A DNA stretch of 38,273 bases from Candidatus Latescibacterota bacterium (lineage in GTDB: Bacteria > Latescibacterota > UBA2968). Shown here piece by piece: positions 5,106 to 28,128 of this stretch. The notes beneath the pieces are model-generated. The model saw nothing but the letters and a program-made list of their open reading frames with translations. It searched no databases and had not been told where the DNA came from. The position numbers and the translations under genes are program-made. The stretch is taken from contig JAJEDY010000009.1 in NCBI GenBank assembly GCA_022821275.1, positions 1-38,273 of the forward strand, read 5' to 3'. Numbering within the stretch: position 1 is the stretch's first letter; every line of letters starts with the position of its first letter.

Positions 5106-6533
5106 ATGAAGCCTTCTATTTTTTTTACCATAGCTACTTTTGTATTCTCTACCGTTGGTGTGGCTCTGGGTGCCGAAGCTCCTGCTATCCCTGCGTTTCC
5201 CGGTGCCGAAGGAGCCGGTGCTCAAACCGTTGGTGGTCGAGGTGGTCGCGTCATTGAGGTTACCAATCTCAACGACAGTGGCTCTGGCAGCCTTCGCGCT
5301 GCCGTAGAAGCCTCTGGCCCCCGCACCGTTGTTTTCCGAGTCGGCGGCACAATTCGCCTCAAAAGCCCACTTAAGATCAGTGAACCGTATATTACCATTG
5401 CTGGCCAGACCGCGCCTGGCGGGGGCATCTGCCTGGCCGACTATCAGCTCAGCATTGATGCCGATGAGGTTATTGTGCGCTTCCTGCGCGTTCGCCTTGG
5501 GGATACTTCGGAAAAAGATATGGACGCCATCGGTGGCCGGTATCATAAGAATATCATCATCGACCACTGCTCGGCCAGTTGGAGTATAGATGAATGTGTC
5601 TCAGTCTATCGCGTAGAGGACGTCACCATTCAATGGTGCCTGATCTCAGAGAGCCTTCGAGAATCGACGCACATAAAAGGTGCCCATGGCTTCGGCGGCA
5701 TCTGGGGTGGCAAGCGCGTCAGCTACCATCACAACCTGCTGGCACACCACTCCAGCCGCAATCCGCGTATTGCAGGTGGTGATCCATTTGTCCAGCATGT
5801 CGATCTGCGAAATAACGTCATCTACAACTGGGGCTATAACTCCTGCTATGGCGGTGAGGGCGATGTTCGCATCAATCTGGTCAATAACGTTTACAAACCC
5901 GGCCCTGCAACTCGCGATAACGTGCGCGCTCGTCTCGCCAATCCCTATGAAGGTGATGAAGGTCCCGAAGGGTTGGAGCGTTGGTGGATTGCCGGTAATC
6001 TCGTTGTGGGTGCGCCTGACGTCACGGCTGACAATTGGCTTGGCGTCCATCCCGGTAATGATCTTCCTCTCAAGCACTTTCGTGCCGATGGTCCTTTCGA
6101 GATCGCACCGATACATACGGATTCCGCCGTACGCGCTTATCAACGCGTTCTGGAACACGTCGGGGCCATCCTGCCAAGTCGTGACACGCACGACAAACGC
6201 ATCGTCGCCGAGGTAGAATCCGGCACGGTCACTTACGGTGGTTCATATGGCGAAGGTTCAGGCATTATCGACTCCCAGAAGACGGTTGGTGGCTGGCCCG
6301 AATTGGCCTCTGGTCAACCACCTGCTGACACTGACCGCGATGGTATGCCCGATGACTGGGAGAAGCGTTATGCACTCAATCCGGCTGATCCTGCAGACGG
6401 TCCAAAAGACCGCGATAACGACGGCTACACCAATCTTGAGGAATATCTCAACGCTACAAACCCCACGGTTTATATTGATTATAGTGACCCGGCCAATAAT
6501 CGCTTTGGTTGGGACATTGAATCGATCGAGTGA
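5106..6533 (+). CDS. Secreted pectate lyase, polysaccharide lyase family 1
   Basis: A 475-residue protein with a signal peptide (MKPSIFFTIATFVFSTVGVA, cleavage near residue 22-24). The right-handed parallel beta-helix of PL1 follows: 'AIPAFPGAEGAGAQTVGGRG' at 27-46, 'NLNDSGSGSLRAAV' at 54-67, 'IIIDHCSASWSIDE' at 150-163 (calcium/active-site strand) and 'HHSSRNPRIAG' at 214-224, which carries the likely catalytic Arg. Such enzymes cleave polygalacturonate by beta-elimination outside the cell. The C-terminal segment (about 405-460: 'DTDRDGMPDDWEKRY', 'DRDNDGYTNLEEYLNATNP') holds Asp-rich thrombospondin type-3-like calcium loops. AAAGGA lies about 9 nt before the ATG. It ends a three-gene run. 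Confidence 0.92.
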   Translation: MKPSIFFTIATFVFSTVGVALGAEAPAIPAFPGAEGAGAQTVGGRGGRVIEVTNLNDSGSGSLRAAVEASGPRTVVFRVGGTIRLKSPLKISEPYITIAGQTAPGGGICLADYQLSIDADEVIVRFLRVRLGDTSEKDMDAIGGRYHKNIIIDHCSASWSIDECVSVYRVEDVTIQWCLISESLRESTHIKGAHGFGGIWGGKRVSYHHNLLAHHSSRNPRIAGGDPFVQHVDLRNNVIYNWGYNSCYGGEGDVRINLVNNVYKPGPATRDNVRARLANPYEGDEGPEGLERWWIAGNLVVGAPDVTADNWLGVHPGNDLPLKHFRADGPFEIAPIHTDSAVRAYQRVLEHVGAILPSRDTHDKRIVAEVESGTVTYGGSYGEGSGIIDSQKTVGGWPELASGQPPADTDRDGMPDDWEKRYALNPADPADGPKDRDNDGYTNLEEYLNATNPTVYIDYSDPANNRFGWDIESIE

Positions 6534-6629
6534 GCGTCTCAGTTCGAGCATGCGGAATCGGGAGAAGCTGGAGATCTATCAGGGGATACCGGCGAAGACG
6601 TATTCTCCACCGGGATAAGCATTCCATTA

Positions 6630-6748
6630 AAAGTAAGTTTGGACTTGACCCATTTGATTGGACAACGTATCTCTTTCAGGGAGATGCTTGGGATAAACTT
6701 ACTAAGCTATTCACTAAAACGAGGTAGCTCTACCAGTTCGGAGTTTTT
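6630..6748 (+). other. Hairpin-rich segment with a possible gene remnant upstream of the AlbA_2 gene
   Basis: A perfect 9-bp inverted repeat AGTAAGTTT (6632-6640) / AAACTTACT (6695-6703) encloses a second hairpin, ATCTC-TTTCAGG-GAGAT (6669-6685). A T7 run follows at about 6742-6748. One frame across it reads SKFGLDPFDWTTYLFQGDAW then DKLTKLFTK and stops at 6725-6727. That looks protein-like, so this may be the eroded 3' end of a gene. It could equally be a structured leader of the following gene. No family was recognised. Confidence 0.3.
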
Positions 6749-6760
6749 TTGAGAGGCCAC

Positions 6761-8407
6761 ATGACCGTTTCCATAGACATGCTCCAAACCTGGATGAACG
6801 CCAGGGAAGATGAACACCTGGAGTTCAAAGAGGCAAAGAAGAATTTCCACTTTGAGACCCTGGTAAAGTACTGCGTCGCCCTCGCCAATGAAGGCGGTGG
6901 AAGAATGATCCTGGGCGTAACGGATAAACTGCCGCGTAAAGTGGTTGGCAGCCAGGCTTTTAGCAATCTCGAACGGACAAAGGCCGGTCTGGTTGATCGA
7001 GTGAGGCTTCGTATTGATGTCGAGGAGATTCAGCATCCAGATGGCCGGGTTCTGGTTTTTCAGGTTCCCTCTCATCCAATCGGTATGCCTATGCAGTATA
7101 AAGGTGCATATTGGATGCGTGGTGGCGAAGCCCTTATTCCCATGACACCTGACTTGCTCCAACGCATTTTTGCCGAGTCCGGTCCCGATTTTTCGGCGGA
7201 GATTTGTACCTCTGCCCAATTGGACGATCTCGATCCAAATGCTGTAGAGGTTCTGCGTCAACTCTGGCAGCGCAAGTTATTGGATCAGGACATTTCGACC
7301 CGCTCTGTAGAACGACTCTTATCAGATGCCGAGTTGCTCGTTGATAATCAAGTGACGTACGCGGCATTGATTCTTCTTGGCAAACGGGAAGCCCTGGGCA
7401 AATATCTCGCTCAAGCGGAGGTCATCTTCGAGTACCGATCCAACGAAGTGCCGGGGCCAGCGGCGGAACGGCATGAATTTAGACAGGGTTTTCTTACTGT
7501 GCTTGACGAGATATGGCGACTTATCAACCAGCGCAATGACCTGCAACACTTTCAACAAGAATTTTTTATTTGGGATGTGCCCACTTTCAACGAGCGCGTG
7601 GTGCGCGAGGCTGTCTTGAATGCGGTGAGTCACCGCGATTACCGCCATGGAGGATCGGTCTTTATTCGCCAGTACCCTCGGCGCATCGAAATTGTCAGTC
7701 CCGGTGGCTTTCCACCCGGTATCACACCCGATAATATTCTCCGGCAACAAAATCCGCGCAATCGCCGTATCGCCGAAGTCCTTGGCAAGTGCGGATTGGT
7801 CGAACGAGCCGGACAAGGGTTTGACCGCATCTTCCGCGAGTGCATTCAGCAGAGCAAGCCATTGCCCGACTTTTCCCATACAGATACCTACTCCGTATGG
7901 CTCACGTTGCACGGTGAGATTCAAGACCCGGAGTTTCTGCGCTTTCTGGAGGAGATCGGTCAAGAACAAGTGGCTACATTTGGTCTTGACGATTTGTTGG
8001 TGGTCGATCTCATCCACCGCGAGCAGTCTGTTCCCGAAGACCTGCAATCAAGGGTTGATCATCTGCTGGAGCAGGGGATCATCGAGCGCGTGGGACGTGG
8101 GCGTGGCGTGCGGCTTATGCTCTCTCGACAGTTCTATCGGTATATTGGTAAGGCGGGTACTTATACGCGCAAGCGCGGATTGGACCGCGAGACGAGCAAG
8201 GCGTTATTACTGAAACACATTCGAGATAATCGGAAAGAAGGGAGTCCGTTGCGGGAACTAAGGCAGGTACTACCGGCACTTTCGCGCGATCAAGTGCAGA
8301 GTTTGCTTCGGGGTTTGAAGAGCGAGGGACGCATCTATAAAGTTGGAGCCACTAGAGCCGCTCGCTGGTATCCAGGGCGACCGCCATCTGGAATTGCGTC
8401 AAAATAA
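6761..8407 (+). CDS. Schlafen/AlbA_2 DNA-binding domain plus RecG-like ATPase protein
   Basis: The protein has 548 residues from the ATG at 6761, with GAGAGG 5 nt before it; a TTG at 6749 in the same frame is less likely. Residues about 5-130 form the AlbA_2 domain (EHLEFKEAKKNF, 'CVALANEGGGRMILGVTD', 'GAYWMRGGEALIPMTPDLL'). Residues about 270-375 form the GHKL-type ATPase-like domain of RecG-like regulators ('REAVLNAVSHRDYRHGGSV', 'IEIVSPGGFPPGITPDNIL', 'GQGFDRIF'). The last about 150 residues contain winged-helix-like segments and end in RAARWYPG...GIASK. Family members are predicted transcription regulators or defence-associated proteins. The 3' end carries a short-repeat system described separately. 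A truncated relative of its tail lies at 13046. Confidence 0.88.
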   Translation: MTVSIDMLQTWMNAREDEHLEFKEAKKNFHFETLVKYCVALANEGGGRMILGVTDKLPRKVVGSQAFSNLERTKAGLVDRVRLRIDVEEIQHPDGRVLVFQVPSHPIGMPMQYKGAYWMRGGEALIPMTPDLLQRIFAESGPDFSAEICTSAQLDDLDPNAVEVLRQLWQRKLLDQDISTRSVERLLSDAELLVDNQVTYAALILLGKREALGKYLAQAEVIFEYRSNEVPGPAAERHEFRQGFLTVLDEIWRLINQRNDLQHFQQEFFIWDVPTFNERVVREAVLNAVSHRDYRHGGSVFIRQYPRRIEIVSPGGFPPGITPDNILRQQNPRNRRIAEVLGKCGLVERAGQGFDRIFRECIQQSKPLPDFSHTDTYSVWLTLHGEIQDPEFLRFLEEIGQEQVATFGLDDLLVVDLIHREQSVPEDLQSRVDHLLEQGIIERVGRGRGVRLMLSRQFYRYIGKAGTYTRKRGLDRETSKALLLKHIRDNRKEGSPLRELRQVLPALSRDQVQSLLRGLKSEGRIYKVGATRAARWYPGRPPSGIASK

Positions 8408-8475
8408 AAAAATAAGCAAAAAAACGCAATTGATTACGCAATTAGACGCAATAAATTTTTTAAATATTTGTTTTA
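8338..8475 (+). repeat. 3' tail of the AlbA_2 gene with AATTGCGT / ACGCAATT repeats (copy 1)
   Basis: AATTGCGT (8392-8399) lies inside the last codons of the AlbA_2 gene. It is followed, after an A-rich spacer, by three direct copies of its reverse complement: ACGCAATT at 8424 and 8436 and ACGCAAT at 8446. Each downstream copy can pair with the upstream one, giving alternative hairpins. About 130 bp here are similar to 13046-13182, including the flanking GCCGCTCGCTGGTA and TATTTGTTTT stretches, but the short repeat itself differs. Confidence 0.75.
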
Positions 8476-8483
8476 TATATATA

Positions 8484-8512
8484 TTTATAAATGCGTATAA
8501 AATACGTATAAT
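8484..8512 (+). promoter_or_regulatory. Possible promoter of the SHGG/ThDP operon
   Basis: TATAAT at 8507-8512 has a weak TTTATA 17 nt upstream (8484-8489). The surrounding sequence is strongly AT-rich and includes TGCGTATAAAATACGTA, a near-palindrome that could be an operator. The predicted start site lies about 35 nt before the ATG at 8555. Confidence 0.4.
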
Positions 8513-8554
8513 AAAGTGAAAAAAATATATACAATAGTACAATTAGAGGCTATT

Positions 8555-9346
8555 ATGGATGCGATTCAGGTTGCCGATAGTATTACAAAGCTGGGTTCTC
8601 AGTTGCGGGGAACGGTTCTTGTTGCTGCTTCCCATGGAGGGCGGTTTTGCGGGTATCTCGCAGCATTGGCTGGTCTTCGAGGTGTTATTTTTAATGATGC
8701 GGGTGTTGGGAAGGACAATGCGGGGATTGGGTCGCTTGATTATTTGCAAGGTCTCGGACTCGCGGCTGCCGCGATTGCACATACGTCTGCGCGTATTGGC
8801 GATGGAGCAGATATGCTCAAGCGCGGGCGCATCAGTTTTTGCAATGAGATAGCCCGTGCGCTTGGATGTGAAGAGGGGCAGATGTGCCGAGAGGCGGCTG
8901 AGATTTTGTGTAATGGCAAGCCATTTGAAGGGGATGTTCCGGGCTACGAGGAATCGCGCTCTGTGTTGCAAGAGGTGCCTGTTCTTACGATTGCATGTGA
9001 TTCTGCATCACTCGTTACGCCTGAGGATGCAGGTGCGTTTATTATTACGGGGTCGCACGGTGGGGTGATTGCGGGCAGGCCCGATTATGGTATTGCAGCA
9101 GAGGCGAGGGGCGCGGTGTTTAACGATGCGGGGGTCGGTATTGATCGGGCAGGTGTTCGGCGTCTTGAGGTTCTGGATCGCGCCGGTATTCCCGCGGGGA
9201 CAGTGGATGCGATGACCGCCTGTATCGGCGATGCGGTTTCCGCATGGGAGAGCGGTGTTCTGTCGTATGTCAATTTACAGGCGGAAAGATGCGGTGTTAA
9301 AGTGGGGATGACGGTGCCGGAGTTTGGAGAGAGACTTAGTTTTTAA
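8555..9346 (+). CDS. Internally duplicated SHGG/FNDAGVG protein, unknown family
   Basis: A 263-residue soluble protein from the ATG at 8555 (AGAGG 5 nt before it; an in-frame GTG at 8516 lacks such a site). I do not recognise the family. Two halves repeat the same motif series: SHGG (26-29; 167-170), FNDAGVG (46-52; 189-195), D-N/R-AG a few residues on, IGD (81-83; 225-227), G-x-I/L-S, and an Asn (97; 240). The conserved His, Asp and Asn in each half suggest two equivalent ligand or catalytic sites made by gene duplication. No signal or membrane segment is seen. It is first in an operon with three ThDP-enzyme genes, with 14 nt to the next start, so a role with their substrate or product is likely. 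Confidence 0.8.
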   Translation: MDAIQVADSITKLGSQLRGTVLVAASHGGRFCGYLAALAGLRGVIFNDAGVGKDNAGIGSLDYLQGLGLAAAAIAHTSARIGDGADMLKRGRISFCNEIARALGCEEGQMCREAAEILCNGKPFEGDVPGYEESRSVLQEVPVLTIACDSASLVTPEDAGAFIITGSHGGVIAGRPDYGIAAEARGAVFNDAGVGIDRAGVRRLEVLDRAGIPAGTVDAMTACIGDAVSAWESGVLSYVNLQAERCGVKVGMTVPEFGERLSF

Positions 9347-9360
9347 TCCGTGGAGTTTCT

Positions 9361-11091
9361 ATGTCTTCAGTTGTACACATGAATGGCGGACAGGCGCTTG
9401 CTGAGATGTTTCGCCTTCACGATCCGGCGCCTATGTTCGGTATGGGAGGGTTTCAGCTTCTGCCTTTTTACGATGCGGTGCGCGAGTTGGGGCTTTCGCA
9501 TACGTTGATCAATGATGAGCGGTGTGGTATTTTTGCCGCCGATGCCTGGGCGCGCGTGACGGGGCGTCCCGGAATATGCGATGGTACGCTCGGTCCCGGG
9601 GCGACGAATCTGGTTACGGGCTTGGTGGAGTCTCTGAATGCGGGTGTTCCGCTGATTGTTGTTGTGGGCAATAGCAATCGCGAGCATTCGTGGAAGAATA
9701 TGACGCAGGAGGCGCGTCAGACGGAGATTCTGGCGCCTGCGGCTAAAGCGCTTATTCGGGTCGAGAGCGGCTATCGCATCCCCGAGCTTGTGCGACGCGC
9801 GTACGCTGTTGCCACATCCGGGCGACCAGGACCTGTTGTGCTGGATGTGCCCGAGGATATTGCTCATGGGGAGTACGATTATCTTAGGGCGGATTTTTTT
9901 GTGGATCCAGAAACGTTGCGTATTCCCGCACAGCGTTCGCGCCCGGGGCGAGATGCGGTTGCGCGCGCTGCAGAGCATCTGCGCGATGCCCGGCGGCCGA
10001 TTATTCTCGCTGGCGGTGGTGTCCATCTTTCTCGGGCGTATTGCGAGCTACAGAATTTTGCCGAGGCTTTTGGTATTCCGGTGGCGCAAACGCTGAGTGG
10101 CAAAGGTGCGATTCCCTGTATTCATCCGCTCAGCGTAGGGCTGTTCGGGCGCTGGTCGCGGATTGCCAATGATTTGATCGCGTCTGCAGATTGCATTCTG
10201 TCGGTTGGTTGCAAGATGGGCGAGATTGCCACGAAACGCTATGATTTGATTCCGCGCGGTGTGCCTTTTATTCATCTCGATATTGTGGCTGAAGAGATTG
10301 GGCGCACTACGCCTGCTACCGTTTCACTCTGGGGTGATGCGGCTGAAGGTTTGCGCGATCTTCAAGCGTGTTTGTCCTCGGATCGAGTGGCGATGCAGGA
10401 GATGCGCGCGGCTTATTTGACCGAGATTTCAGAACGGATGGCTGCCTGGCGAGCCGAGGCAGAGCCGCGTTATGCTTCTGACGAGAGCCCCGTCAATATG
10501 GCGCGGGTGGTGCGCGAGTTGCAAAACGCGATGCCCGAAGATGGTGTTCTGGTTGTGGATGGTGGGTTTGCCGCGCATTGGACGGGTTTGCTTTACGATT
10601 CTACCCGGTCTGGGCGCTCGTATATTGCCAATCGAGGATTTGCTTCTATTGGTTATGGGTTGCCGGGTACGATGGGCGCACAACTCGCTGCGGGCGATTC
10701 ACCCGTTGTTGGTCTGACGGGAGATGCGGGGTTTAATATGGTGCTGGGCGAACTGGAGACGGCCCGGCGTCTTGGGCTTGGGTTTACGCTCGCGATTGTG
10801 AATAATGCGGCTTCGGGTTATGTCAAAGCGCTTCAGCACAATATGTATGAAGGGCGCTATCAGTCGAGTGATCTGAGCGAGACGGATTATGCCGATACGG
10901 CCCGCGCGCTCGGCTGTCAGGGTATTCGCGTGGATGATCCTGGGGCATTGCAAGGTGCTTTTGCCGAGGGGATTGCCAATCGCGATATTCCTACGATTAT
11001 CGATGTTATTGTTACGAGAGATCCATCAAAAATGTTGCCGGGCGTTGATAGCCGAACAGCGCCGGTTAAAAAGGGCGATAGGCCCGCATAG
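9361..11091 (+). CDS. Acetolactate-synthase-like ThDP-dependent enzyme
   Basis: A 576-residue protein with the three-domain layout of the acetolactate synthase/benzoylformate decarboxylase family. The PYR domain carries the cofactor-activating Glu53 in 'LINDERCGIFAADAWARVTG'. A central Rossmann-like domain follows ('RRPIILAGGGVHLSRA'). The PP domain contains the ThDP motif 'LTGDAGFNMVLGELETA...NN', with GDA at about 454-456. It probably decarboxylates a 2-oxo acid and transfers the product. The exact substrate cannot be read from sequence, and candidates include acetolactate-type, sulfo- or phosphono-oxo-acid reactions. GGAG lies 5 nt before the ATG. It is the second gene of the operon, with a GGAG-led start for the E1 alpha gene following after 13 nt. 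Confidence 0.9.
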   Translation: MSSVVHMNGGQALAEMFRLHDPAPMFGMGGFQLLPFYDAVRELGLSHTLINDERCGIFAADAWARVTGRPGICDGTLGPGATNLVTGLVESLNAGVPLIVVVGNSNREHSWKNMTQEARQTEILAPAAKALIRVESGYRIPELVRRAYAVATSGRPGPVVLDVPEDIAHGEYDYLRADFFVDPETLRIPAQRSRPGRDAVARAAEHLRDARRPIILAGGGVHLSRAYCELQNFAEAFGIPVAQTLSGKGAIPCIHPLSVGLFGRWSRIANDLIASADCILSVGCKMGEIATKRYDLIPRGVPFIHLDIVAEEIGRTTPATVSLWGDAAEGLRDLQACLSSDRVAMQEMRAAYLTEISERMAAWRAEAEPRYASDESPVNMARVVRELQNAMPEDGVLVVDGGFAAHWTGLLYDSTRSGRSYIANRGFASIGYGLPGTMGAQLAAGDSPVVGLTGDAGFNMVLGELETARRLGLGFTLAIVNNAASGYVKALQHNMYEGRYQSSDLSETDYADTARALGCQGIRVDDPGALQGAFAEGIANRDIPTIIDVIVTRDPSKMLPGVDSRTAPVKKGDRPA

Positions 11092-11104
11092 TGGAGAATA
11101 TCGT

Positions 11105-12070
11105 ATGGCTCTTACACAGGAAAAGCAACTCGAGATGCTGCGGATTATGCAAACGATTCGGCGCTTTGAAGAGCGCGCGTCTGATGATTATCGCGCAGGG
11201 GATATTTACGGTGTGGTCCATTGCTATATCGGCGAGGAGGCCGTTGCCACAGGTGTCTGTGCCGCGCTCAATTCGGACGATCAGATTATCAGTACGCATC
11301 GGGGGCACGGGCATTGTATTGCCAAGGGGGCGGATTTGAAGCGTATGATGGCTGAGCTTTATGGGCGGGAGACGGGGTATTGTAAGGGCAAGGGGGGATC
11401 GATGCATATTGCCGATTTTAGTATTGGGATGCTCGGTGCGAATGGCATTGTGGCGGGTGGCATACCCATTGTTACGGGTGCTGGTCTGGCCGCGCAGCTC
11501 GAGGGCAAGGGGCGCGTTGCGGTTTCGTTTTTTGGCGATGGGGCGTCAAATGCAGGTCCTTTTCACGAGTCGATCAATATCGCTGCGGCGTGGAAGCTGC
11601 CCATGATCTATGTTTGCGAGAATAATCTCTACGCGGCGAGCACTCCGGCGGCGAGTACGCTGGCGCATAGCGATGTTGCTGCGCGTGCCGCGGGGTACGA
11701 TATCCCGGGCGTGGTTGTGGATGGGAATGATGTGATGGCGGTTTATGATGCGACGCAGGAGGCTGTTGCGCGCGCGCGCAATGGCGAGGGTCCTTCGCTG
11801 ATTGAGTGCAAGACTTATCGCTGGCGAGGGCATACGGAGAGGGTTGGCGCGGCTGATCCAAGGCCGCAGGGCGAGATCCGCGCATGGCAGGAGAGAGATC
11901 CGATTGAGCGGTTTGTCGCAGGTCTGATGGATCAGGGCTGTATTACCCAGGAGGCGTGGCAAGAGATGGATGAAGAAATTCTCGCGGAGATTGAAGAGGC
12001 GGTTCAATTTTCCAAAGAGAGTCCATTTCCAGATTTAGAAGCTGCAGTCGAAGATGTTTTTGCCGAGTGA
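11105..12070 (+). CDS. 2-oxo acid/acetoin dehydrogenase E1, alpha subunit
   Basis: The frame is open from further upstream, inside the previous gene. The ATG at 11105 is chosen because GGAG lies 8 nt before it and the E1 alpha homology (LEMLRIMQTIRRFEERA) begins there. The 321 residues include 'STHRGHGHCIAKGAD' (63-77) and the ThDP motif GDGASN (144-149), plus 'PMIYVCENNLYAAS'. It pairs with the E1 beta gene 15 nt downstream to form an alpha2beta2 enzyme that decarboxylates a 2-oxo acid or cleaves acetoin. No E2 or E3 gene is present in the window, so the acceptor is unclear. It resembles acetoin dehydrogenase (AcoA) and pyruvate dehydrogenase alpha about equally. Confidence 0.92.
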   Translation: MALTQEKQLEMLRIMQTIRRFEERASDDYRAGDIYGVVHCYIGEEAVATGVCAALNSDDQIISTHRGHGHCIAKGADLKRMMAELYGRETGYCKGKGGSMHIADFSIGMLGANGIVAGGIPIVTGAGLAAQLEGKGRVAVSFFGDGASNAGPFHESINIAAAWKLPMIYVCENNLYAASTPAASTLAHSDVAARAAGYDIPGVVVDGNDVMAVYDATQEAVARARNGEGPSLIECKTYRWRGHTERVGAADPRPQGEIRAWQERDPIERFVAGLMDQGCITQEAWQEMDEEILAEIEEAVQFSKESPFPDLEAAVEDVFAE

Positions 12071-12085
12071 GTCGAGGATAATACG

Positions 12086-13042
12086 ATGAGAAAAATCTCT
12101 TATGCACAGGCCGGGATGGAAGCTCTTGTAGAAGAAATGAGGCGCGATCCAACGACGTTTCATCTGTCAACCGATGCGCCCGATGCGCTCGTCGAAGAGT
12201 TTGGGTCTGAGCGCGTGCGCGCCACGCCCATTGCCGAGGGCGCGCTTACCGGAATTGCTGTTGGTGCTGCCGGTTCTGGATTCCGTCCGATTATCAACTG
12301 GAGTATGGTTACGTTTTCTTTTGTGGCGATGGACCAGATTGTGAATCAGGCAGCCAAGATCCACTATATGTTCGGGGGGCAGGTGAAATTCCCGATTACT
12401 TTCCGAACGTCTGTTGGAGGTGGCAGGCGGGTTGCGGCGCAACATTCGCAGAGTCCGTATTCGATGTTTATGAATCTCGCGGGATTGAAGATGATTTTGC
12501 CTTCAACGCCTTATGATATGAAGGGGCTTCTCAAAACGGTTATTCGGGATGATAATCCCGTCATTTCTTTTGAGTCCAATCGCCTCATGGGTGTTGCAGG
12601 TGAAGTCCCAGAAGAGCCTTATACCGTGCCTCTGGGCAAAGCGGATGTCAAGCGCGAGGGTTCGGATGTCACGATTGTCGCACTGGCCTGGCTGGTACAC
12701 GAAGCACTGGCGGCTGCTGATGTGCTGGATAAGGAGGGGGTTTCCGTTGAGGTGCTGGATCCGCGTACACTGGTTCCGCTCGATTGCGATGCTATTCGCG
12801 CGTCTGTGCAAAAGACCGGGCGGCTGGTTATTGCGGATGAGGCGGGTCCCACAGCGGGTGCCTCAGCCGAGATTGCTGCTGTGGCGACCGAAGATGTAGA
12901 GACGTTTGCTAAGATGAAGGCGCCCGTCAAACGCGTCTGCGCCCTCCATGTGCCCATTCCGTACACGCCCCAGTTAGAAGATCACGTTTTTCCAGATCGA
13001 GATAATATTGTTGCAGGTGTTAGAGAGGTGATGAATGTTTGA
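12086..13042 (+). CDS. 2-oxo acid/acetoin dehydrogenase E1, beta subunit
   Basis: A 318-residue E1 beta with the typical motifs: 'RATPIAEGALTGIAVGAAGS' (about 46-65), 'AMDQIVNQAAKIHYMFGGQ' (about 86-104), 'AAQHSQSPYSMF', 'LPSTPYDMKGLL' and the C-terminal transketolase domain ('VEVLDPRTLVPLDCDAI'). The Glu in PIAEG activates ThDP. GAGG lies 9 nt before the ATG. Only a few bases after its TGA, the truncated AlbA_2 tail begins, so it is the last gene of the operon and sits at a recombination boundary. Confidence 0.93.
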   Translation: MRKISYAQAGMEALVEEMRRDPTTFHLSTDAPDALVEEFGSERVRATPIAEGALTGIAVGAAGSGFRPIINWSMVTFSFVAMDQIVNQAAKIHYMFGGQVKFPITFRTSVGGGRRVAAQHSQSPYSMFMNLAGLKMILPSTPYDMKGLLKTVIRDDNPVISFESNRLMGVAGEVPEEPYTVPLGKADVKREGSDVTIVALAWLVHEALAAADVLDKEGVSVEVLDPRTLVPLDCDAIRASVQKTGRLVIADEAGPTAGASAEIAAVATEDVETFAKMKAPVKRVCALHVPIPYTPQLEDHVFPDRDNIVAGVREVMNV

Positions 13043-13045
13043 GGG

Positions 13046-13113
13046 AAAAAGTAGGGGACACTAACGCCGCTCGCTGGTACCCAGGAGACTCTTCATCTGG
13101 AATTATGCCAAAA
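13046..13113 (+). pseudogene. 3' end fragment of an AlbA_2/RecG-like gene paralogue
   Basis: In the frame read from about 13046 the codons give EKVGDTNAARWYPGDSSSG then IMPKNK and a stop. This matches the C-terminus of the 6761-8407 protein (KVGATRAARWYPGRPPSG then IASK). The fragment begins within a few bases of the E1 beta stop codon, so the rest of this second gene is missing. It was lost or displaced when the operon and this tail were joined. Confidence 0.75.
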
Positions 13114-13182
13114 AATAAATAATAGGACAAAAGGCATAATTTTGGCATAATTAGGCACAATTAATTTTATAAGTATTTGTTT
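13101..13182 (+). repeat. 3' tail repeats of the AlbA_2 remnant, AATTATGCC / GGCATAATT (copy 2)
   Basis: AATTATGCC (13101-13109) is followed, after an A-rich spacer, by its reverse complement GGCATAATT at 13133 and 13144 and by GGCACAATT at 13154. The order and spacing match copy 1 at 8392-8452: one inverted copy in the final codons, then three direct copies 10-12 nt apart. The motif itself is changed consistently in all members. Confidence 0.75.
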
Positions 13183-13236
13183 TTTCGTAGGTTTTTCTCC
13201 AGGTTAATATCATATATATAATATCTTCTATGCAAT

Positions 13237-13266
13237 AAAAACCACGTTCTTTGGGCGTGGTTTTTT
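13237..13266 (+). terminator. Rho-independent terminator before the glycosyltransferase
   Basis: A 10-bp stem, AAAAACCACG (13237-13246) with CGTGGTTTTT (13256-13265), has a 9-nt loop and ends in a T6 run. It closes the upstream operon/remnant. Its sequence is nearly the same as the terminator at 14419-14450. Confidence 0.88.
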
Positions 13267-13291
13267 GTTCCGTTTTCCCAGGAGGTGCCCT

Positions 13292-14299
13292 CTGACACGA
13301 AATCCAAAATTTTCAGTGATTATCCCAACATATAATCGCGCAAATTATGTTGCGGAGGCTGTTGAGAGCGTTTTGCGACAGACGTATCAGGGTTTTGAAC
13401 TCATTGTGGTGAATGATGGTTCTACGGATGATACGGCAGAGGTGATCAAGCGGTTTGGGGATCGGATTTGCTATGTTGAGAAGGCAAATGGCGGGAAGGC
13501 GTCTGCTGTGAATCTGGGGCTGAAATATGTGACGGGTGAGTATGTTTGGATTTTGGACGATGATGATATCGGGTTGCCGAATAAACTCGAGTTGCACGCG
13601 GCGCAGTTTGCAGAGGATCCGGATTTGAGATTTGTCTATACGGGCTATGAATTCATAGAGGAGGAGAGAAGCGATTTACCCGTGCGGTCTTTTGAAGCGC
13701 GGATGCCGCCTATAGACGATATGGTGATGTATTTGTTCGGGCGATTTGAGTTGTGCAGTCCGACCGTGGTTGCCCATCGGATGTGTTATGACAGGGGCGG
13801 CTGTTTTGACGAGCGTTTGATTCGCGGGCAGGATTACGATATGTGGATTCGCATTATACGCGCCGGGTTTAAGATAGGTGTGATTGAGCAACCCACGCTT
13901 CGGTGTCGCATGCATGAGGGAGATCGGGGTTCGGCGTCCGATCGCTTTGCTGCGGGCGATATTAGAGAAAAGAATCGGGAATACCTGGGGCTTATTGTGC
14001 AGAAGTTGTATTGGGAGTTGCCCCTGAAGGCTTTTTACAGTCGTTTGGCTCGAGATCCAGATGACCCGATTTTGATTATGAAGGCTCTGTTGCGGCGTTT
14101 GTGGATGATGCCACTGCCTGTGCTACAGGACGAGGTATTGCGCGATCTGGATATGCTGGAAACGCATGTCGAGCAGCATCACTTGTCGCTTGATGACTCT
14201 GCCCACCGTTTTTTGATAAGTCTAAAAAATACAACAGAACAAACTGCACCCCGTGTCGCAAAAAAGGTTGGCAAAATCCTGAACATTACACATGATTAA
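13292..14299 (+). CDS. Glycosyltransferase family 2, apparent CTG start
   Basis: A 335-residue protein with a GT-A fold. The nucleotide-sugar binding N-terminus FSVIIPTYNRANYVAEAVES (residues 6-25) is followed by 'VVNDGSTDDTAEVI' (about 39-52), the metal-binding 'WILDDDDIGLPNK' and an acceptor-side 'RGQDYDMWIRIIRAGF'. It should transfer a sugar onto a surface or secreted glycan, or onto another acceptor. No membrane helix is obvious. A strong AGGAGG (13280-13285) is 6 nt before CTG at 13292. The only other in-frame start, TTG 13265, lies in the T-run of the preceding terminator and has no ribosome site, so CTG is preferred. It stands alone between two near-identical terminators. Confidence 0.87.
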   Translation: MTRNPKFSVIIPTYNRANYVAEAVESVLRQTYQGFELIVVNDGSTDDTAEVIKRFGDRICYVEKANGGKASAVNLGLKYVTGEYVWILDDDDIGLPNKLELHAAQFAEDPDLRFVYTGYEFIEEERSDLPVRSFEARMPPIDDMVMYLFGRFELCSPTVVAHRMCYDRGGCFDERLIRGQDYDMWIRIIRAGFKIGVIEQPTLRCRMHEGDRGSASDRFAAGDIREKNREYLGLIVQKLYWELPLKAFYSRLARDPDDPILIMKALLRRLWMMPLPVLQDEVLRDLDMLETHVEQHHLSLDDSAHRFLISLKNTTEQTAPRVAKKVGKILNITHD

Positions 14300-14418: not shown

Positions 14419-14450
14419 AAAAAACCACGTCCTTTGGGCGTGGTTTTTTG
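14419..14450 (+). terminator. Bidirectional terminator between glycosyltransferase and ThDP enzyme
   Basis: An 11-bp stem, AAAAAACCACG (14419-14429) with CGTGGTTTTTT (14439-14449), has the loop TCCTTTGGG. The A-run upstream and T-run downstream let it work in both directions. It serves the plus-strand glycosyltransferase and the minus-strand gene ending at 14479. Confidence 0.88.
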
Positions 14451-27427: not shown

Positions 27428-27874
27428 CTAAACTCCTCCTGTATCCACTTCTTCTGCGTCGCGCAAATCTATTAATGCATTCAAATCATCTGGAGAATAA
27501 ACAGGTATCTCGGCTTTTTCAAAATCAGATGCATTGCGCGTGACAATAAACTCAGCACCAACACGGCGAGCAGATTCATATAAAACACCATCTTCAAAAT
27601 CTGAAAAGCTGCCGTCAACAGCCATTGACAACACAGAACGGTTGACCAATGCAATCTCAAAAATATCGAGCAATTCTCGAATGCGATTCAGAGCAACAGC
27701 TTTGCCAACTCTGGGCCTTGCGATATAATAAATATTCGTTATCGTCGTTGCACAAAGATATCCATGAATCGCTTTTTGTTCTGCGTGATCAAACAAAAGT
27801 AGCGCAGCTTCGACGAAAGGTGTGCGATCTAGCAAAACATCCAAAACCACATCTGTATCAAAAAGGACAATCAT
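27428..27874 (-). CDS. PIN-domain toxin (VapC-like ribonuclease)
   Basis: A 148-residue PIN domain. The N-terminal acidic motif 'IVLFDTDVVLDVLLDR' (2-17), central 'TITNIYYIARPRVGK' and C-terminal 'DFEDGVLYESARRVGAEFIV' plus 'TRNASDF' carry the expected acidic residues for a Mg-dependent RNase. The start overlaps the antitoxin stop as ATGA. Unusually, the toxin gene is joined 2 nt upstream of a metabolic gene in a long catabolic operon. Confidence 0.88.
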   Translation of the reverse strand: MIVLFDTDVVLDVLLDRTPFVEAALLLFDHAEQKAIHGYLCATTITNIYYIARPRVGKAVALNRIRELLDIFEIALVNRSVLSMAVDGSFSDFEDGVLYESARRVGAEFIVTRNASDFEKAEIPVYSPDDLNALIDLRDAEEVDTGGV

Positions 27875-28128
27875 CGATATTTTTCCTCAAGATAGCGATA
27901 ATAGTCCTCTTCATCTACTTTTGCATCTTTCAATGCACCCTTCAAAGACTCTGTGATCGGCCCGTATTTTTTTTTCGATGGCGGCTCCTGTTTGCTCTTT
28001 TCCAGGCTATCCAAAAATTTGATATAGTCTGCAACGAGCTTTGAAACCGACTTTCCGCGTTTCTTTGCATGTGCTTTGGCCAGTGCAACCAATTTATCAT
28101 CCATCTGCAATGTGAGTCTGGTCTGCAT
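27871..28128 (-). CDS. Ribbon-helix-helix-type antitoxin (DUF6364-like)
   Basis: An 85-residue protein. Residues 1-45 (QTRLTLQMDDKLVALAKAHA, 'KKRGKSVSKLVADYI') have the strand-helix-helix pattern of RHH DNA-binding antitoxins, and the charged C-terminal tail ('EEDYYRYLEEKYR') should wrap the PIN toxin. AAAGGAG lies about 6 nt before the ATG. The pair sits between a sulfatase gene (64 nt upstream) and the ASST-like gene. The 64-nt gap can hold its own autoregulated promoter. Confidence 0.86.
   Translation of the reverse strand: MQTRLTLQMDDKLVALAKAHAKKRGKSVSKLVADYIKFLDSLEKSKQEPPSKKKYGPITESLKGALKDAKVDEEDYYRYLEEKYR

Follow-up and report, generated by a model that had tools for sequence, protein, structure and literature searches.

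Phased repeats at the 3' end of a prokaryotic Schlafen gene: a probable binding array exchanged together with the gene's last winged helix

The window, by which we mean the whole stretch of 38,273 nucleotides analyzed here, contains an SLFN_AlbA_2/HATPase_c_4 gene with the following features:

6761..8407, + strand: SLFN_AlbA_2/HATPase_c_4 gene with two C-terminal winged-helix domains; 548 aa from the ATG at 6761
6806..7138, + strand: SLFN_AlbA_2 domain (Pfam PF04326, 7e-13)
7649..7906, + strand: HATPase_c_4 (GHKL-type ATPase) domain (Pfam PF13749, 2e-18)
7928..8125, + strand: first winged helix, wHTH1 (AlphaFold2 model, residues 390-455)
8153..8380, + strand: second winged helix, wHTH2 (AlphaFold2 model, residues 465-540)

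The reading frame can be extended upstream to a TTG at 6749, and the ATG start is common to the relatives in genomes G006, G042 and G044. Both Pfam matches exceed the Pfam cut-offs; for the HATPase_c_4 region, weak Foldseek matches to histidine kinases and PDK were also obtained. The AlphaFold2 model, computed from an alignment of 36 relatives (mean pLDDT 85.9), has the helix/strand pattern of two winged helices, and winged-helix matches were found with Foldseek too. The top Foldseek match was the family structure 3lmm, followed by human SLFN14 (2e-4), SLFN11 (4e-4), SLFN13 (3e-3) and SLFN5. The SLFN_AlbA_2 domain has conserved ExxxxEFK and LGVxD motifs in alignments, on which E16, E21 and D55 would be the Schlafen-like acidic residues. 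By its domains, fold and acidic residues, the window protein belongs to the prokaryotic Schlafens (SLFN_AlbA_2/GHKL/wHTH, COG2865-like), a family that is already known; the RNase and anti-phage activities described in the prokaryotic Schlafen literature are those of members other than the window protein.

PADLOC gave only weak partial matches (AlbA-like parts of pAgo systems, and the winged helices of SoFic and CARF proteins). Members of the family have defence genes as neighbors: HsdS upstream or HsdR downstream (L112, L129, L133, L154, L182, L072), MmeI-like methylase and/or helicase genes (L156, L178), BrxC of a BREX system before the gene (L158), or a NERD-kinase gene after it (L180). Locus L182 had no DNA-level match in E. 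coli, and matches in plasmids were all below 60% identity.

The window holds other elements as well. Adjacent genes for an AbiEi-like antitoxin and an AbiEii-type toxin occupy 1188-2722, and two small adjacent ORFs on the - strand (27428-28128) look, by eye, like a PIN-type toxin and its antitoxin. A terminator-like hairpin of ~31 bp (ACCACG...CGTGGT) is present at 13234-13268 and 14420-14450, and recurs at many places in the genus with 85-97% identity.

The end of the Schlafen gene and the DNA that follows it carry an array of short repeats (tail 1, sites at 8392-8453):

8392..8399, - strand: site 1, inverted (AATTGCGT on the + strand), within the last codons
8424..8431, + strand: site 2, ACGCAATT
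8436..8443, + strand: site 3, ACGCAATT
8446..8453, + strand: site 4, ACGCAATA, 7 of 8 = ACGCAAT(A)
8459..8474, + strand: end motif TTTAAATATTTGTTTT (consensus TATAARTATTTGTTTT), independent of array type

The direct sites are spaced by 12 and 10 bp, and none of 2000 shuffles, which keep dinucleotides only approximately, reached four copies of one 7-mer in this tail. An earlier note on this DNA had described an inverted site followed by three copies of its complement; two of these are exact copies of ACGCAATT, and the third (ACGCAATA) agrees at 7 of 8 positions. Similarity to unlinked copies of the tail ends at 8480 (G044) and 8488 (G037). A search of the window's own genome found the ACGCAATT pair only at this gene, so that no genomic regulon was seen. 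The TATAARTATTTGTTTT end motif, of which the same genome has only five copies at <=1 mismatch, joins arrays of different types (window 8459-8474 and 13168-13183, L336, L345 and L348).

A second tail lies further along the window:

13048..13183, + strand: solo type-B tail, array and the ~20 last codons of an AlbA_2 gene that was lost or never complete
13101..13109, - strand: site 1, inverted (AATTATGCC on the + strand)
13133..13141, + strand: site 2, GGCATAATT
13144..13152, + strand: site 3, GGCATAATT
13154..13162, + strand: site 4, GGCACAATT
13168..13183, + strand: end motif TATAAGTATTTGTTTT

The layout that the earlier note had given for it, AATTATGCC followed by two exact GGCATAATT and one GGCACAATT, was confirmed at these positions. 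This tail is not the 3' end of an AlbA_2 gene: it consists of no more than ~20 end codons with their array, flanked by an unrelated gene that stops at 13042 and by a glycosyltransferase gene. Direct sites are spaced by 11 and 10 bp, an 8-mer present three times was matched by 5 of 2000 shuffles, and the two tails are 75% identical overall. Wherever arrays occur, the copies in one tail resemble each other without being exactly the same, the pattern to be expected from degenerate protein sites.

Are such arrays a general property of the family? Distant homologues (25-60% identity) have gene-specific repeats at or directly after the stop codon, among them ACGGATGTAA x5, TTGCGTCAGAT x3, TCTCGCA x5 at 11 bp, CTATGAG x7 at 10 bp, GGTTATA x4 and GCGTTAA x10. 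The collection scans used alignment A2, alignment A1 being too diverse, and many of the genomes are metagenome assemblies. The best repeated 7-mer was significant (p <= 0.05) in 36% of the 3' ends of 96 homologues, in 5.4% of 846 neighboring gene ends and in 6.2% of own 5' ends. Lags between direct 8-mer pairs peak at 10-12 and 20-22, more weakly at 30-32, and are near background elsewhere. Array spacings of 10-12 or 20-22 bp correspond to whole helical turns of DNA, and this geometry is the same for different unit sequences. Over all sets, in-phase repeats were found at 44 of 96 target 3' ends and at 62 of 850 neighbor ends (7%). In the previously uninspected set L138-L179 they occurred at 20 of 40 target and 34 of 396 neighbor 3' ends (OR 10.6, p 5e-10), out-of-phase lags at only 1 of 40. 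The 7-mer, lag and in-phase tests are free of chosen motifs. In-phase pairs were present at 10 of 97 own 5' ends (10%), slightly above neighbors. A sample from other genomes gave in-phase repeats for 16 of 23 genes matching the full-length profile and for 6 of 19 partial matches; phyla with arrays include Nitrospirota, Chloroflexota, Armatimonadota, Planctomycetota, Acidobacteriota, Bacteroidota, Bacillota, Spirochaetota and Pseudomonadota, as well as others.

Related tails that lack the repeats, which the earlier note had named as an observation against a constraint, do exist, although 44 of 96 homologues carry arrays: the strict test found no in-phase repeat in the other 52. No arrays were seen in sister AlbA_2 subfamilies with another C-terminus, nor in sets R and S, and phased 3' repeats were found in none of 29 Fic genes that match the SoFic profile and have a related C-terminal winged helix; a connection of the arrays with the Fic winged helix was rejected on this count. 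One sister AlbA_2 gene, L227 (G017:C37), has a 12-nt repeat of coding type (CACCGCACAAGT, peptide VTAQ) with DNA spacing like that of the 3' arrays.

The position of the sites bears on what they could control. With motifs chosen by hand, as they also were for the close-pair and partial-correlation tests, density was 13.1/kb in the 3' zone, a circular figure since one motif per locus was picked from that zone; the same motifs reached 0.08/kb in the own 5' zone and 0.20/kb across the rest of about 10 kb. Close motif pairs were found at the 3' end of 31 of 32 loci, and elsewhere in 1 of 32. A classical promoter autorepressor was rejected on these densities, the own 5' zone lying under the background. 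The array might instead serve the downstream gene or defence operon as an operator, acting on read-through or on a promoter behind the gene, for example that of hsdR. Several loci do lie in defence operons (with HsdS/HsdR, MmeI-like, BrxC or NERD-kinase neighbors), and three direct repeats in the promoter of a type I restriction island are the target of the unrelated repressor RptR (PMC12255303). However, 36 of 89 loci have a convergent gene as their nearest downstream neighbor, as do 10 of the 27 loci with arrays; stand-alone genes beside unrelated genes have the same arrays; and similarity stops at the array end while the downstream genes differ. Because the sites are off the 5' ends and the neighbor is often convergent, the array would be neither a promoter autorepressor site nor, in general, a next-gene operator. 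We rejected the latter as a general function and, for the array as such, regard it as unlikely.

Two RNA readings had been offered in the earlier note as well, a small repeat RNA and alternative hairpins at the mRNA end. A function at the RNA level, for instance as the RNA of a type III-like toxin-antitoxin system, would account for the inverted arms seen in the window and in about half of the loci, for the strong palindromes of L103 and L142 (folding z -7.3 and -5.5), and for the arms of set Q, where inverted and direct copies change together. Yet the inverted copy is absent from about half of the arrays, the two window tails fold with z of only -1.1 and -0.9 against shuffles, direct-only arrays (L113, L117, L156, L166, L178) fold at or above the shuffle mean, the spacing follows the DNA helix, and Rfam gave no match over 6500-13400. 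With many arrays consisting of direct copies alone and folding no better than shuffles, pairing in RNA is not what constrains the arrays in general; a single protein with its sites at all copies would equally lead to the paired arm changes of the window tails and set Q. As a general function, hairpins or a small RNA thus had to be dropped, and we consider an RNA role of the array very improbable. A type III toxin-antitoxin of the ToxIN kind was rejected on the 3' location of the repeats, the folding of most direct-only arrays, no better than shuffles, and the lack of an Rfam match.

The array is exchanged together with part of the protein. In two clear cases and a weaker one, the helix-turn-helix (HTH) and wing of wHTH2 change with the array, and the rest of the protein is 91-98% identical. 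The window protein and that of G006 are 97% identical over AlbA_2+GHKL and 65% in HTH + wing, with different arrays; G044 and G042 likewise give 91% and 65%, and the BREX-linked Marinobacter-group loci L164 and L162 give 98% and 51%, again with different arrays. The window and G044, which share an array type, show 87% and 90%. The exchanged part of wHTH2 comprises residues 501-540 (8261-8380); wHTH1 is conserved across array types (84-100% identity between compared alleles). Loci L158 and L164 have wHTH2 and array in common, being 98-100% identical from -180 to +60, compared with 85-95% upstream and 55% beyond the array. Quartet-informative sites in group 2 go from 0/3/16 (-749..-200) to 59/1/0 (last 199 nt plus 60 nt of array). 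The quartet of the window's own group, with 6/7/4 sites, is uninformative because three array types are present, and the cassette claim there therefore rests on identity profiles. Over 35 loci, motif similarity tracks C-terminal similarity at given body similarity (partial r 0.20, permutation p 0.001), a weak correlation on hand-picked motifs; the converse, motif against body similarity at given C-terminal similarity, gave partial r 0.03 (p 0.28). A joint change of C-terminus and array is expected of a DNA-binding domain with its own site, and not of selection for RNA pairing.

Arrays also occur without a gene. Solo arrays were found at window 13048, at L345 and L348, and in G001, G003, G009, G010 and G015, the last a similar solo tail in another family. 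Within the window's genus, the gene was lost and the array kept in G001 and G003 (junction 6674|8329), in G009 and on two G010 contigs, and G007 has an internal deletion of the gene. The solo type-B tail of the window is an insertion relative to five genus relatives (L337, L327, L329, L339, L341), in which a gap of 35-53 bp separates the flanking matches; no clear target duplication was seen in this comparison. The beginning of the solo tail is similar to the empty site, AAAGTGGGGTAACTCC. The own-genome solo tails L348 and L345 (C72, near 72534 and 74590) are of another type, TTTAGTAAAGG / ATTAAAGG, and in L348 a Macro-domain (DarG-like) gene seems to run at its end into the last codons of the tail. 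G010 has the exact G001/G003 deletion junction with a type-B-like array, not type A (L322 = G010:C353, L321 = G010:C472, L043, L047), its two contigs being two deletion variants; because the junction is shared and the array type differs, the type may have changed after gene loss.

It is conceivable that the array ends a mobile unit and serves it as a site of attachment or transposition; solo arrays would then be by-products. The module's similarity does end at the array, solo arrays are common, and the window's solo tail is an insertion. No linked recombinase was found, however, and neither a target-site duplication nor a terminal inverted repeat is evident; the deletions appear to have joined at short homologies that arose by chance (ATCT, CGAGG), and helical phasing and the match between array and wHTH2 type would be left unexplained, so that we hold a recombination or mobility site to be highly unlikely. 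Integron attC and CRISPR-like readings were likewise put aside, on informal grounds. Variation was also counted within the array core: 0 of 29 positions vary among five genus genomes, against 34 of 103 around it (p 5e-5), and in three solo tails alone 0 of 29 against 25 of 102 (p 9e-4); limited to the non-coding part, conservation is weak (p 0.04 and 0.15, respectively). Slippage is generally known to make tandem repeats, and 3' flanks hitchhike in recombination, so the repeats could be neutral by-products at gene ends, carried along when 3' halves recombine. Against this stand the neighbor genes in the same DNA, whose ends lack repeats, the enrichment of helical lags only, the same geometry despite different unit sequences and, with the limit just given, the invariant core; we give neutrality hardly any credence.

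With a probability of about 0.75, we thus take the array to be the DNA that the gene's own C-terminal domain recognizes and binds, the two being inherited together as a specificity cassette, because the array is general, lies off the own 5' ends and is exchanged jointly with HTH + wing. Sequence comparison is enough to establish these properties, namely the generality of the array, its position, its phasing, its absence from the own 5' region and its joint exchange. That the window protein binds the array via wHTH2 is what we infer from them. Among the earlier note's guesses, an operator set bound by the AlbA_2 protein is hence the favored one, in view of the helical phasing, the absence from promoters and the way in which the HTH and wing of wHTH2 are replaced along with the array. 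On the repeats, protomers would line up head to tail along one face of the DNA helix, each bound through its last winged helix, and recognition domain and array would move and recombine together in a cassette of about 200-250 bp; moving as a unit, the cassette would always provide the protein with its own sites in cis. The effect of binding would most likely be local self-control of the defence-associated Schlafen RNase. The nucleoprotein complex at the gene end would limit what the gene itself produces, a road-block at the stop codon being one way, and/or would keep RNase and ATPase parked until infection disturbs the array complex; on either point, restraint of output or parking, we are less certain than on binding.

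A bolder version, which we regard as speculative and rather doubtful, makes the array a DNA 'antitoxin' or licence, the Schlafen RNase being held inactive as an oligomer on its own 3' array. In infection, the RNase would then be set free when host DNA is damaged, replicated or degraded, and the 3' cassette would keep nuclease and licence inseparable in horizontal transfer. For the cognate-array reading itself, the persistence of solo arrays is the main observation left uncovered: arrays kept after gene loss are not predicted by a purely gene-dependent role, and either the genes were lost recently or the arrays are still of use in their absence. The 3'-end position is, moreover, unusual for an operator. 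If the cognate-array reading is correct, a widespread defence-linked Schlafen family carries a DNA address at each gene's end, a binding site is predicted for every member, and nuclease, ATPase and DNA recognition are joined in one model. The natural cassette-swap pairs L158/L164 vs L162/L168 would then lend themselves to work on a winged-helix recognition code, and the family would offer a neat case of a DNA-binding domain co-inherited with its target.

The literature open to full-text search, mostly non-subscription journal papers, has no report of the 3' array or of the cassette swap. In the parts of the prokaryotic Schlafen literature available, the proteins (SLFN_AlbA_2 + GHKL/HATPase_c_4 + wHTH, PDB 3lmm being a member) have the same domain order and links to defence operons, and those parts make no mention of a 3' binding array or an array/wHTH cassette. 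The TAACTGA repeats of Beggiatoaceae (PMC4679880) were rejected as a parallel, as they lie upstream of start codons and have no link to the Schlafen family. RptR represses type I restriction islands and, similarly, binds at short direct repeats within restriction loci; unlike the window protein, it is a small, unrelated dimeric repressor, and its repeats are in the promoter, not at a gene's 3' end (PMC12255303).

The presumed Schlafen system shares several traits with better known ones. ToxIN-type III toxin-antitoxin loci place an RNase gene beside cognate tandem repeats, as the putative RNase gene is placed here, but ToxIN repeats are longer, lie upstream and act as RNA, whereas here units of 7-12 bp with DNA-helix spacing lie downstream. 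Plasmid iterons and parC repeats are head-to-tail repeats that carry rows of DNA-binding protomers. BldC-type binding to direct repeats is described as cooperative (PMC5859096). The Schlafen array resembles all three in its head-to-tail repeats under a row of protomers, here predicted; BldC sites, iterons and parC are promoters, origins or centromeres, whereas the Schlafen array abuts the stop codon of its presumed binder and, unlike them, is exchanged with the recognition domain. In HsdS, target-recognition domains are swapped. There, as in the Schlafen cassette, a specificity module is replaced and the rest of the gene kept; the difference is that in the Schlafen cassette the DNA target itself is swapped too.
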